From the NCBI RefSeq assembly GCF_002884445.1, contig NZ_KZ614144.1:475272-539271 (forward strand): DNA of 64,000 nt, given 5' to 3'. Below the pieces are notes generated by a model that worked only from the letters and a program-made list of their open reading frames with translations, was not told the origin of the DNA and made no database searches. The stretch's first letter is position 1, and each line of letters opens with the position of its first letter. The translations under genes were made by a program, and so were the position numbers. Positions 3,454-53,154 of the stretch are shown here, piece by piece. Source of the DNA: Paenibacillus castaneae. GTDB taxonomy: Bacteria > Bacillota > Bacilli > Paenibacillales > Paenibacillaceae.

Positions 3454-3587
3454 TTCTTTAGGCATATGTTTTCAAGGCATTTGTTTAATGAATGCATCTA
3501 ATGGTTTATATACACGCAACAATATCTCATTTATAATAAACAGATTTCAAAGTCAGACATCCTTGTTTTCCATTGGAGGTTATGTAA

Positions 3588-3752
3588 ATGAAAATCATTG
3601 AGAGCGCCAAATATTGTTGGCATACGTTCTGGTCTAGTTACAACATTGTCATGTATGAGAGCTGTATAGATGAAGGCATGCGTAGGAAGCTGAAAAAGAA
3701 ATTTCACTATCATAATCAGAAGCTGGTTCAGCTATCTTGGAGAATGATTTAG
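3588..3752 (+). CDS. Small protein, 54 aa; paralogue of the riboswitch-controlled protein at 50515-50667
   Basis: This short ORF (MKIIESAKYCWHTFWSSYNI...) is supported by a near-perfect SD (GGAGG) seven bases before ATG 3588 and by a strong terminator just after its stop. It aligns without a gap over its first 46 residues to the protein at 50515-50667. Trp11, His12, Asn19, Cys26, Asp28, Glu29, Arg32, Tyr41, His42, Lys45 and Leu46 are identical, with many conservative matches between them. It looks like one amphipathic helical unit rich in aromatic and basic residues, with no signal peptide or membrane segment. I do not recognise the family. A TATAAT sits about 50 bases upstream, but I could not assign a matching -35. 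Conservation between two loci argues strongly that it is translated. Confidence 0.7.
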   Translation: MKIIESAKYCWHTFWSSYNIVMYESCIDEGMRRKLKKKFHYHNQKLVQLSWRMI

Positions 3753-3765
3753 GTATAGTATAGAG

Positions 3766-3809
3766 AAAAAGGTCTTGTCAGCTGCTATAGCAGTCGATAA
3801 GACCTTTTA
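3766..3809 (+). terminator. Rho-independent terminator after the small protein gene
   Basis: AAAAGGTCTTGTC pairs with GATAAGACCTTTT around an internal GCTGCTATAGCAG hairpin. The A-rich and T-rich flanks make it potentially bidirectional. Confidence 0.8.
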
Positions 3810-3900
3810 TATACATATTTTTATATTTTCGTTCTTTATTAAGAATATTTTGGTACAATAAACTCGAAAGCATTTTGTGGGTCATATGGGGGAAATCATT

Positions 3901-50344: not shown

Positions 50345-50383
50345 GATGAAGCTTTAAATAATACAAAACAACTGCATAACCCA

Positions 50384-50474
50384 CACGATAAAGGCAAAAC
50401 CATTGAAAAGTGGTGACGCAAAGCTACAGGGGCTTATCTTTTAAAAGACTGCCAGCCAGCTACCGAATATCGTG
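50384..50474 (+). ncRNA. Cyclic di-GMP-I (GEMM-I) riboswitch
   Basis: P1 is CACGATA (50384-50390) with TATCGTG (50468-50474). Inside are AAGGCAAAAC, the helix ACCATT closed by a GAAA tetraloop with AGTGGT, GACGCAAAGC, a variable arm, and the tetraloop-receptor and ligand-side block GCCAGCCAGCTACCGA. All the diagnostic conserved elements of the GEMM-I aptamer are present in order. It begins about 40 bases after the epimerase remnant and controls the small ORF at 50515. Confidence 0.95.
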
Positions 50475-50510
50475 CCTCCCGCGTGGTTTATGTGGAAACA
50501 TGGAGGTTAT
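50475..50510 (+). promoter_or_regulatory. Riboswitch expression platform: SD-sequestering hairpin
   Basis: CCTCC at 50475-50479 follows the aptamer P1 directly and can pair with the SD GGAGG at 50502-50506, with CGTG and TTT against CATG and AAA inside. There is no T-run, so control is probably translational. Which ligand state is ON was not determined; adjacency to P1 would suit OFF when c-di-GMP is bound. Confidence 0.6.
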
Positions 50511-50514
50511 TATT

Positions 50515-50667
50515 ATGTTCATGCGCACAAAGGTTGTACGTGAATGGCATCTGCTCTGTATGGGATTCAATGAATTGCTGTGGAAAGATTGCTTAGATGA
50601 GAAAAAGCGCATGGAGATTTATTTGAGAATTGTTTATCACAAAAATAAACTAGCGGCGGTCTCATGA
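50515..50667 (+). CDS. Small protein, 50 aa, under a c-di-GMP riboswitch
   Basis: The ORF begins MFMRTKVVREWHLLCMGFNE at ATG 50515, eight bases after GGAGG, and a strong terminator follows 48 bases past the stop. It aligns without gaps to the small protein at 3588-3752, sharing W11, H12, N19, C26, D28, E29, R32, Y41, H42, K45 and L46. There is no signal peptide or membrane helix. It is predicted to be one or two amphipathic helices with one conserved Cys and two conserved His. I do not know the family. Control by c-di-GMP suggests a role in the switch between motile and sessile or matrix-forming states, next to the EPS genes. Whether it is a regulator or an effector cannot be said. Confidence 0.85.
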   Translation: MFMRTKVVREWHLLCMGFNELLWKDCLDEKKRMEIYLRIVYHKNKLAAVS

Positions 50668-50715
50668 ACAAGCAAGTAGCGTGTAATTAATAGATATGAA
50701 TACGCTATATACGTA

Positions 50716-50751
50716 GCTGACGCCCCGTCACTAAGAAGCGTCAGCTTTTTT
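50716..50751 (+). terminator. Terminator after the riboswitch-controlled gene
   Basis: GCTGACGC pairs with GCGTCAGC across 14 bases and is followed by TTTTTTA. Confidence 0.88.
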
Positions 50752-50859
50752 ATTTGAAAATTAATGAAGGAATGAATGCTTCATATAAAACCAAAACAAT
50801 GAAAATTTCGAATAACACTTATGATTATTGCAGGTGCACTCGTTGCACCAACACATCGA

Positions 50860-51310
50860 CCAACCGGAGCAAACAACGGAAGTCAAAAGTGAGCAGGTAC
50901 CTGAGGAAGTAGAATCGTCCCAACCAGAAGATGCTGCTGAACCATCTCCACTTGCAACGGTATCACCAGAACAAACGCCAACTGCAACTTTATAACCAGT
51001 ACATACGTCTAATAATGTAGACAAGGGCTAGTAGCCTGATAAAGAACCTGCTGCTGTGGTAGGTAAGTCTCAGAAAAAAGAAATTGATTCTTCTATAACA
51101 GTTAAACTTCAGAAGCTAAAGCCCTCATGTCAGGCAAAGAGTAATAGTTTGGTCAAAGCAGAGGCTGATTGTGATGCCGAATTCAATCAATTAATAAGCA
51201 GCGCTCAAAGTGAGTATAAGGCAGCAGAACTAGGCGATCAATGCCTGCCTGATTGGAGCGCACAGTATGAAAGTGCGAAAGCTCAAGCTAGAGCGGATGC
51301 GCACTATCAT
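50860..51310 (+). pseudogene. Decayed paralogue of the membrane-anchored Cys-pair protein at 52429
   Basis: One reading frame contains QTTEVKSEQVPEEVESSQPE, a TAA, then two adjacent TAG codons, and afterwards KKEIDSSITVKLQKLKPSCQ, AEADCDAEFNQLISSAQSEY and LPDWSAQYESAKAQARADA. These match the linker and C-terminal domain of the intact protein at 52429-53154 (KKEIDAKISGEMQKLRAACT, EEANCDGKFNQLLSQAKSDY, LPDWSSEYEAAKEKTSSDAL). An internal deletion has removed the segment between the two Cys. The N-terminal membrane helix is lost and the end runs into a frameshift. The open stretch 51056-51472 is not a separate gene. Confidence 0.8.
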
Positions 51311-51356
51311 TGCAAACTCACTCATATAGTCATCTTTATTATTCCAAGGAGGCCCC

Positions 51357-52262
51357 ATGAAAAAATCACGTATACTATCCGTTTTTTTAGCTCTTATGAT
51401 GCTATCTTCCGTTCTTGCCGCATCTGCAGCGGCGGCAACGACGACGATCCAAACAAAAACGCAGCCAATTAATCTTATGTTTGATGGGCAAGCGCTTAAA
51501 TTGCCGGAAGGCCAGTATTCCTTCATCTATCAAGGACGTACATATGTCCCGATTCGTTATATCTCCTATGCGTTGCAGAAATCAGTAAATTGGGATGGCG
51601 GGAAGGCTACTATTTCGGATCCAACAGAAAAGGAGCTTGAAGCGCTGAAAAAGCAATTACAAAGTGCAGCTTCAGGCAGCCAGAAACCGCAAGCGAGTAT
51701 TAATATTACGATTTCACCCGTCAAAGCAACTCTTGTCTTCAATGGCAAAGTAACCCCATTGCCTGCGGGACAATCGATCTATGGTTATAAAGGTTCTATC
51801 TATGTGCCTATTCGCTTCTTGTCTGAATCAATGGGGACAACAATTAATTGGGATCCTGTCACGAAAACGGTAAGCGGACAGTCAGCAGGCTATAACGGCG
51901 GCGGGACTTCATTACCTGGAATCGGCGGGGGAGGCACTACTGGAGGAACAGGTGAAACAAAGCTTACTTACGAGCAAATTACTAGTCAGACGGAAACGAA
52001 GCTGCAAGCTTTACGTAATAGCTGCAAAACATCTTTAATTACTTTAGCAGCTAAGTATTTAGATGCAACGACAGATAAAGCTCGCGATGATCTTATGGCG
52101 CAGGCTAATCAAGTGCTTTCGAAATGCTCATCGGATTTTGAAGATATTATGAATAATACTAGAGCCCAGCTAACGGCTGGCAAATATAGCACGGATATTA
52201 TTGCAGAATACCGTAAAACATTTGAAGCTGACATTGCGGCTAGCCGCGAATATATTAAGTAA
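51357..52262 (+). CDS. Secreted copper-amine-oxidase-N-type protein with C-terminal Cys-pair helical module
   Basis: This is a 301-residue exported protein. ATG 51357 follows CCAAGGAGG. The signal peptide is KKSRILSVFLALMMLSSVLA with cleavage near AASAAAA. Two copper-amine-oxidase N-terminal-like repeats follow: YVPIRYISYALQKSVNWDGG and YVPIRFLSESMGTTINWDPV. A Gly/Thr hinge (GGGTSLPGIGGGGTTGGTG) leads to a helical module of about 85 residues with LQALRNSCKTSLITLA and LSKCSSDFEDIMNN. The same two-Cys helical pattern occurs in the next gene and in the preceding pseudogene. A disulphide between the two Cys is possible outside the cell. Function unknown. Confidence 0.85.
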   Translation: MKKSRILSVFLALMMLSSVLAASAAAATTTIQTKTQPINLMFDGQALKLPEGQYSFIYQGRTYVPIRYISYALQKSVNWDGGKATISDPTEKELEALKKQLQSAASGSQKPQASINITISPVKATLVFNGKVTPLPAGQSIYGYKGSIYVPIRFLSESMGTTINWDPVTKTVSGQSAGYNGGGTSLPGIGGGGTTGGTGETKLTYEQITSQTETKLQALRNSCKTSLITLAAKYLDATTDKARDDLMAQANQVLSKCSSDFEDIMNNTRAQLTAGKYSTDIIAEYRKTFEADIAASREYIK

Positions 52263-52428: not shown

Positions 52429-53154
52429 ATGAAAGAAGACAATAGTGGTAATCAAAAATGGTTGAAGCGACTAGTCATAATAGGTATATCTGTAGTTGTC
52501 ATTGTAATCGTGGTCGTTAATGTCGTTAAGCTCAGCTCAAAATGGAATACTGTTAATCAGATGACGGCTGAATTGGAGAAAGGTTCTGAGACCGTTAAGG
52601 AGGAGCCTTCTGAAACACCTGCTGGATCCAATGCTCCTTCAGATCTCAACTCAGGCATAGAAGAAACGCCAGAAGTAACGCCGCAGACTGAGAAAGTTGA
52701 TGAAGAAATACCAGTGCCAAGCCATGAACCGAGTCCGAAACCGAGTTCTAATCCAACTGAGACTGGCAATGAAACGGTAAAGGATACTGAAGCTCCGACA
52801 AAGAAACCGCCTAGCAAGAAAGAAATTGATGCGAAAATTTCAGGAGAAATGCAGAAGCTGAGAGCTGCCTGTACGGCATCCAGCAATAAGCTGGTTCAGC
52901 AGATCAAGCAGGAGCTTAGTGGGGATGAAGAAGCCTCGCTGCGAACGATTCAGAAGAAATTTATAGTGAAGGTTGCCGCTGAGGAAGCGAATTGCGATGG
53001 GAAATTCAATCAACTCCTTAGCCAGGCCAAAAGTGATTATAGCGCAGCAGATATTAGTCATGATGGCTTGCCGGACTGGAGCTCGGAATATGAAGCGGCC
53101 AAGGAGAAAACCAGCTCTGATGCTTTGACCGAAATCGCTAGTGTTCTAAAATAA
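52429..53154 (+). CDS. Membrane-anchored protein with Pro/Glu/Thr linker and Cys-pair helical domain
   Basis: This is a 241-residue protein with one N-terminal membrane helix (RLVIIGISVVVIVIVVVNVV). An extracellular low-complexity linker rich in Pro, Glu, Ser and Thr covers residues about 40-125, followed by a helical domain of about 110 residues. That domain has MQKLRAACTASSNKLVQQIK and AAEEANCDGKFNQLLSQAKS, ending LPDWSSEYEAAKEKTSSDA. It is the intact version of the upstream pseudogene, and its domain is related to the C-terminal module of the protein at 51357-52262. No enzymatic motif is seen. A surface-exposed or wall-spanning role is inferred from the layout. Confidence 0.8.
   Translation: MKEDNSGNQKWLKRLVIIGISVVVIVIVVVNVVKLSSKWNTVNQMTAELEKGSETVKEEPSETPAGSNAPSDLNSGIEETPEVTPQTEKVDEEIPVPSHEPSPKPSSNPTETGNETVKDTEAPTKKPPSKKEIDAKISGEMQKLRAACTASSNKLVQQIKQELSGDEEASLRTIQKKFIVKVAAEEANCDGKFNQLLSQAKSDYSAADISHDGLPDWSSEYEAAKEKTSSDALTEIASVLK

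Follow-up and report, generated by a model that had tools for sequence, protein, structure and literature searches.

Spo0E-type proteins, Sda, and SinI are small helical regulators that act through protein contact. The predicted hairpin of the proteins described in this study resembles Sda and SinI in being small and helical, although the family members match neither of them in Pfam scans. The Spo0E-like aspartyl-phosphate phosphatases (PF09388) are likewise small proteins of the same genome; in contrast, the present family shows no profile similarity to them, and its conserved residues differ. To our knowledge, little is known about the outputs of c-di-GMP in Paenibacillus and its relatives. 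Compared with other regulons of the c-di-GMP-I riboswitch (GEMM-I, RF01051), the aptamer studied here is a full member of the class by sequence score and is predicted to bind the ligand, whereas its target is an unnamed small protein and its platform consists of a closing helix, P0, and a CCUCC element facing the Shine-Dalgarno (SD) sequence, with no terminator.

The locus lies in a 64,000-nucleotide stretch of Paenibacillus castaneae DNA (hereafter, the window), which contains two related small open reading frames (ORFs) with the following features:

3509-3537, + strand: sigma-70-type promoter-like site TATACA-17-TATAAT before the 54-residue ORF (promoter scan, weak)
3575-3579, + strand: SD sequence GGAGG of the 54-residue ORF, 8 nt to the ATG (sequence)
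3588-3752, + strand: 54-residue small protein (P0001), family member without a riboswitch (profile E 6.6e-21 with the ORF within the profile; E 1.7e-17 with a profile lacking it)
3767-3808, + strand: terminator-like hairpin after the 54-residue ORF (fold of 3753-3815: -26.9 kcal/mol, z -7.2)
50502-50506, + strand: SD sequence GGAGG of the 50-residue ORF, 8 nt to the ATG (sequence)
50515-50667, + strand: 50-residue small protein (P0002), family member behind a riboswitch (profile searches)
50716-50751, + strand: terminator-like hairpin and T run after the 50-residue ORF (fold of 50690-50760: -16.0 kcal/mol, z -2.4)

The first-pass annotation had described two such ORFs with near-ideal SDs and terminators, and this description holds: both are found at these coordinates and lengths, share W11-H12, N19, C26, D28-E29, R32, Y41-H42, and K45-L46, and have a terminator-like hairpin past the stop codon. 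A simple terminator pattern scan picked up neither hairpin. The two proteins align without a gap, with 12 of 40 residues identical, at E 4e-8 in a single BLASTP comparison and E 0.0026 when the whole genome was searched. Several searches found exactly these two members in the own genome; a further candidate, L003 (E 0.37), overlaps an apparent transporter gene and was rejected as a non-member. It had also been proposed that one member is controlled by c-di-GMP and the other is constitutive or sporulation-linked. The first part is supported in that a c-di-GMP-I aptamer is present at the 50-residue ORF only, whereas the link to sporulation found no support: the sole site that a scan for sigma-70-type promoters gave upstream on the strand of the 54-residue ORF is the one listed above, and such sites are not enriched in this region (2 vs 2.7 in shuffles).

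By sequence, both window ORFs belong to one small-protein family (about 42-70 residues) that is scattered through Bacilli. Of the 1029 stretches that six-frame translation of the window yields, an HMM built from 19 relatives outside the GTDB family ranked the two ORFs first, at E 2.9e-16 and 1.7e-15, ahead of the next at 0.28. Because the window ORFs had themselves been part of the profile or query by which these relatives were collected, this result speaks for specificity more than for independence. With HMMs lacking the 54-residue ORF, or built only from members outside GTDB family f1, at least 13 orders of magnitude separated the window ORFs from the next stretch. Searches of 60 genomes (own included), with matches read to E of about 0.1, gave clear same-genus homologs of both queries. 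The named relatives include P. prosopidis and P. vietnamensis, both in Paenibacillus, and 'Bacillus sp. FJAT-28004'; for the 54-residue ORF, the best relative shares only 39% identity, and there is no close ortholog. Profile A1 (18 sequences) matched at E ≤ 0.01 in 34 of 394 genomes of family f1, and in an even sampling of the class (398 genomes from 146 genera), profile A2 (23 sequences) matched 20 genomes, which belong to 12 genera; both counts include weak matches that were not used further. On inspection, five weak matches (L023, L024, L048, L051, and L057) were judged not to be members. At E ≤ 0.001, the final profile A9 (43 rows) matched only the own genome in a phylum-wide sample of 299 genomes with few Bacilli, in which no member outside the class Bacilli was seen; therefore, the profile does not match at random. 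Viral contigs and phages yielded no relative. On plasmids, one relative was found, the hypothetical protein WJV31814.1 from Rossellomorea, which shares 28% identity and the pattern WH...GCLD...HHHE, but matches at E 0.1 only and bears an annotation without function; a further plasmid search gave no other member. Two tandem pairs of members were also observed, L142/L145 (G573) and L124/L144 (G554).

Among the 46 rows chosen for the tree, W11, H12, and H42 are invariant, and C26 is present in 43. Additionally, position 28 is D or C in 44 rows (D in 34, C in 10), position 35 is L or I in all 46, and position 38 is K or R in 44. The gap-free family core is W-H-(x13)-C-x-[DC]-(x13)-H, and both window ORFs are detected by profile and carry W11, H12, C26, and H42 without a gap. 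The motif suggested earlier, W-H-x6-N-x6-C-[IL]-D-E-x2-R-x8-Y-H-x2-K-L, thus keeps its W/H/C/H core but is too tight, because N19 and K45-L46 vary among the rows. Remoter candidates (L019, L085-L094, and L134-L139), many of them without H12, were kept out of the tree; W-N replaces W-H in L086-L091, L093, and L094, and W-R replaces it in L134 and L136-L138. L069 is absent because its protein is identical to that of L038, and A9 additionally omits L078, L130, and L149. Purifying selection was seen in 13 of 14 close pairs (dN/dS 0.02-0.29; the 14th was saturated). For lack of a close partner, the 54-residue ORF does not figure in these pairs, and the case that it is coding is made by the profile, the SD, and its relatives. 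The tree is poorly resolved, with most forks unresolved, and places the 54-residue protein in a non-riboswitch branch (support 83/70). Its description as a gapless paralog of the 50-residue protein stands as regards the gap-free alignment, but the two are not close paralogs. The riboswitch label changes 5 times on the tree compared with a shuffle mean of 15, and none of 500 shuffles was as low, a result inflated by near-copies.

In one branch, which includes the 50-residue window member, a c-di-GMP-I aptamer regularly stands before the gene, with a common P0/CCUCC platform and no terminator, as the aligned loci attest. In the window, this aptamer is:

50383-50467, + strand: c-di-GMP-I riboswitch aptamer RF01051 (77.7 bits vs a gathering score of 35; model positions 1-87 of 87)

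It is the only Rfam match above gathering score in the window and ends 47 nt before the ATG of the 50-residue ORF. An aptamer lies directly upstream at all 14 genus loci of the 50-residue type (the window, nine, and four), at all three loci of genus g25, and in other families of Bacilli (G544; G554, contig 10; G573, contig 7; and one of two members in G737). The 14 genus loci are orthologs and not 14 independent events, so the independent support comes from g25 and the other families. Riboswitches of this class occur in 50 of 51 genus genomes, at 0 to 11 per genome, and an aptamer just before a given small gene should therefore be rare by chance. No such aptamer was found at gathering score or at E ≤ 5 in the leader of the 54-residue ORF or at ten f1 relatives (L009-L012, L014, L015, L083, L084, L095, and L096). 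Similarly, none lies directly upstream of L123-L128, L130-L133, L141, L147, and L149; at L128, one is located about 1.1 kb away in the opposite orientation. The 24 tree rows outside the genus comprise 7 with a riboswitch, 16 without, and 1 that is the second gene of a tandem behind a riboswitch. In G573, the first tandem gene is behind the riboswitch, and the second may thus be co-controlled.

Several further elements were observed beside these searches. At L079 (G391), two tandem c-di-GMP-I-GGC aptamers (1922-2156) lie downstream of the small gene and its riboswitch, at a distance of a few hundred bases. In a non-riboswitch group with a C-x-C tip (L012, L014, L015, L095, and L096), a similar upstream stretch, in L095/L096 TTGCAAATACATTC...GGATATATGTACATG...CAGCCAGAGATGA, appears by eye to be kept despite differing locations; the locations differ even for two near-identical copies in one genome, possibly due to a mobile unit or a shared regulator. 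Also by eye, a TATG-rich element before the SD is common to L009, L010, L011, and L084 (non-riboswitch) across two genera.

The 50-residue gene in the window is located downstream of a polysaccharide cluster, in which Pfam identifies a flippase (PF01943) and an epimerase (PF01370), and polymerase-like and glycosyltransferase-like ORFs are recognizable by eye. We compared 13 of the 14 genus loci with long flanks (G016 was left out). A polysaccharide gene is present in the flank of 12, 11 by Pfam; the call for L104 comes from similarity to UDP-glucose dehydrogenase, the gene lies downstream in L120, and none was recognized in the flank of L115. Moreover, a membrane-anchored-looking neighbor, c0, occurs at all 13 loci (upstream in L120, downstream elsewhere), and the neighbor c1, with a copper amine oxidase N-terminal domain, occurs at 11. 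The 54-residue gene is flanked by an amino acid permease gene on one side and a family-2 glycosyltransferase gene on the other, and its relatives have no neighbor cluster in common. By eye, members in other families share no neighborhood either, with the exception of a glyoxalase-like gene near both L215 and L219. Since no neighborhood is conserved outside the genus or in the non-riboswitch branches, the polysaccharide link rests on one genus. Two further details of these regions were recorded. The first c0 homolog downstream of the 50-residue gene in the window (50815-51472) looks broken, with a 138-residue fragment at 51056-51472, and a second homolog of 241 residues lies at 52429-53154. L219 (G729), which has no riboswitch, is about 1.6 kb upstream of genes that by eye appear to be capsule/exopolysaccharide regulators.

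To describe the platform, we compared 21 aligned family leaders. In the window leader, its elements are:

50372-50381, + strand: 5' strand of the closing helix P0, CTGCATAACC (pair counts, 21 leaders)
50468-50474, + strand: 3' strand of P1, TATCGTG, complementary to CACGATA at 50384-50390 (sequence and pair counts)
50475-50479, + strand: anti-SD CCTCC (94% of cells complementary to the SD)
50485-50495, + strand: 3' strand of P0, GGTTTATGTGG (pair counts, 21 leaders)

P0 directly encloses P1 (CAUAAACC upstream, GGUUUAUG downstream). Scored on the same sequences whose inspection had led to its naming, P0 is paired in 93.2% of 206 cells, compared with 21-41% in slid controls, and 18 cells are changed on both sides; none of 500 shuffles was as high in either measure. 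Two of the five measures are weak: changes on both sides occur in 6 of 10 pairs, a value that 14 of 500 shuffles equal or exceed, and the variety of pair types is no greater than in shuffles (408 of 500). P1 is paired in 79% of cells, with little covariation. The CCUCC between P1 and P0 could pair with the SD in 94.3% of 105 cells (39-63% in slid controls), partly because the SD is conserved for its own reason. A terminator-like hairpin is present in none of the 21 leaders (65 nt before the ATG). Among 32 further c-di-GMP-I loci, 29 from the genus and three from the own genome, 25 have one, although the stretch inspected there (160 nt after the aptamer) is longer and leaves more room for chance. 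Pfam identifies seven of ten ORFs behind other genus riboswitches, namely, five MCP receptors, a CheX/CheC protein, and a GGDEF protein, and leaves three unassigned. When only the longest helix is compared, P0 is not separated from the other riboswitches, in which helices of as many as 11 pairs arise by chance from A/U runs and T tails (n = 32 controls; L006 and L167 without an anchor; L165, L174, and L177 incomplete or misparsed). Nevertheless, within the aligned leaders, position and covariation do set P0 apart from the helices of other riboswitches.

A covariance model of the whole leader, R1, gave seven matches of at least 93.8 bits in the 398 class genomes. Five of them precede family members and hold by construction because those leaders were in R1. 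Behind the remaining two, L181 (G745) and L183 (G769), are unrelated small proteins that contain hydrophobic stretches; a large ORF follows the next match (G583, 93.3 bits). Thus, the search brought no further members into the family, and other small proteins also use the platform, which is not exclusive to this family. A similar P0/anti-SD layout stands before unrelated small proteins of this kind at L181, L183, and L194 (G690), which are possibly further c-di-GMP outputs.

With an extra helix P0, an anti-SD CCUCC, and no terminator, the leaders point to translational control, and c-di-GMP probably controls translation of the 50-residue member, judging from leader anatomy. As for direction, we slightly prefer an OFF switch, with an ON switch as a close rival. 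In an OFF switch, the AGGC of the ligand-free aptamer could hold CCU; with ligand, P1 would form, and CCUCC would be free to sequester the SD, perhaps in a pseudoknot next to P0. In an ON switch, c-di-GMP would instead cause P0 and P1 to form and expose the SD, so that high c-di-GMP would bring about synthesis of the protein, which would promote matrix production, a reading to which we give somewhat less than an even chance. Nested folding without pseudoknots bears on both. Without ligand, predicted P0 pairing is at least 0.8 in 17 of the 21 leaders; with the aptamer forced, it is at least 0.75 in 16, and in the window leader it drops from 0.84 to 0.15. Forcing the aptamer raises anti-SD:SD pairing from 0.01 to 0.19 in the window leader and from 0.02 to 0.53 in L129, and this pairing then reaches at least 0.1 in only 4 of 21 leaders (window, 0.19; L046, 0.11; L129, 0.53; and L142, 0.22). 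The ON switch would suit the polysaccharide genes nearby in the genus, and P0 and CCUCC:GGAGG are mutually exclusive as nested helices; however, little anti-SD:SD pairing is predicted without ligand, with values no higher than 0.02 in 19 of 21 leaders (exceptions: L129, 0.36, and L143, 0.72) and no higher than 0.08 in all 21 when the leaders end at the start codon.

Based on AlphaFold2 models, whose input alignments held ten sequences (the window and named loci), both proteins are predicted to fold as a two-helix hairpin, with helices 2-24 and 29-52 in the 54-residue protein (pLDDT 83.5, pTM 0.58) and 2-24 and 29-49 in the 50-residue protein (pLDDT 81.9, pTM 0.56). A Foldseek search against the PDB returned nothing at E ≤ 0.001, as expected for a bare hairpin. 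The predicted turn lies near residues 25-28, and H12 and H42 should therefore face each other, with C26/[D,C]28 at the tip; we infer this arrangement from the helix limits. The 50-residue product is most likely a small protein-binding adaptor that would act on the motile/sessile switch or on polysaccharide production, a function and target that we likewise infer. Such an adaptor would work like SinI, Sda, or Spo0E-type regulators without being one by the tests made. The 54-residue member has diverged from it, lacks a c-di-GMP riboswitch, and has a terminator of its own.

A metal- or thiol-dependent protein, a sensor or carrier rather than an adaptor, seems unlikely but is compatible with the adaptor reading. 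H12 and H42 would form one site and C26 and D/C28 another, like the dimer tip of a zinc hook. The invariance of W11, H12, and H42 and the near-invariance of C26 would suit this, the alternation of D and C at position 28 fits a ligand position, and the predicted hairpin sets H12 opposite H42 by residue count. However, no convincing match to known metal-binding families was found, C26 would be far from the histidines in a monomer, and three rows lack C26.

Membership in the Spo0E/Sda/SinI group of sporulation or biofilm regulators is very improbable. The similar size and the predicted helical hairpin recall that group, but none of the 43 members matches such Pfam models at E ≤ 1, including those of Sda and SinI (which we take to be PF08970 and PF08671; model scans, not profile-to-profile comparison), and neither the window ORFs nor the members match PF09388. 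Furthermore, the genome has four Spo0E-like proteins of its own (PF09388 matches), and hhalign of the family profile against them gave a probability of 0.5% over 14 columns. More broadly, Pfam assigns no family to either window ORF. The 43 members at E ≤ 1 hit seven unrelated Pfam-A models, none in more than two members, with no shared family; the best match is Ubiquitin_4 in a single member (E 0.0021). NCBIfam gave no match at E ≤ 1 for the window ORFs and the 43 members, PDB sequences gave none at E ≤ 10 for the 43 members, and PHROGs gave scattered matches (best 0.034). In the literature, no description of such a protein was found in titles or the beginnings of abstracts, which is not proof of absence from print. 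Hence the initial statement that no described family has this pattern agrees with our searches, in that no Pfam, NCBIfam, or PDB family claims the members. That the small ORFs are chance look-alikes or parts of non-coding RNAs is barely credible and is refuted for the family, since low pairwise identity (12/40) is outweighed by the occurrence in 34 of 394 and 20 of 398 genomes, the purifying selection, and the HMM specificity.

Collectively, the HMM searches across relatives confirm the family glimpsed in the first-pass annotation as real and apparently unnamed, with clear conservation in related genomes, no assignment to a known family, and only one window member under a c-di-GMP riboswitch. 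On balance, we lean toward a family of hairpin proteins with a riboswitch branch that has a P0 and anti-SD translational platform, in which the product is a small adaptor of the motile/sessile switch or of polysaccharide production. A bolder and more doubtful proposal is that in Bacilli this helical-hairpin family recurs as a small-protein output of c-di-GMP, on a GEMM-I platform (P0 and a pseudoknotted anti-SD) that other small proteins use; partner contact would tune polysaccharide production or motility, and H12/H42 and C26-x-[D/C]28 would make it metal- or redox-gated. The family would give a name to proteins that are now annotated as hypothetical, as is one annotated relative, or are missed for their size. 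The common P0/anti-SD platform is a translational design open to in vitro probing. Moreover, a small protein that is encoded close to polysaccharide clusters and whose mRNA bears a conserved c-di-GMP riboswitch is an effector that can be tested directly. This makes the 50-residue protein a new candidate for a part in the decision between swimming and biofilm life.
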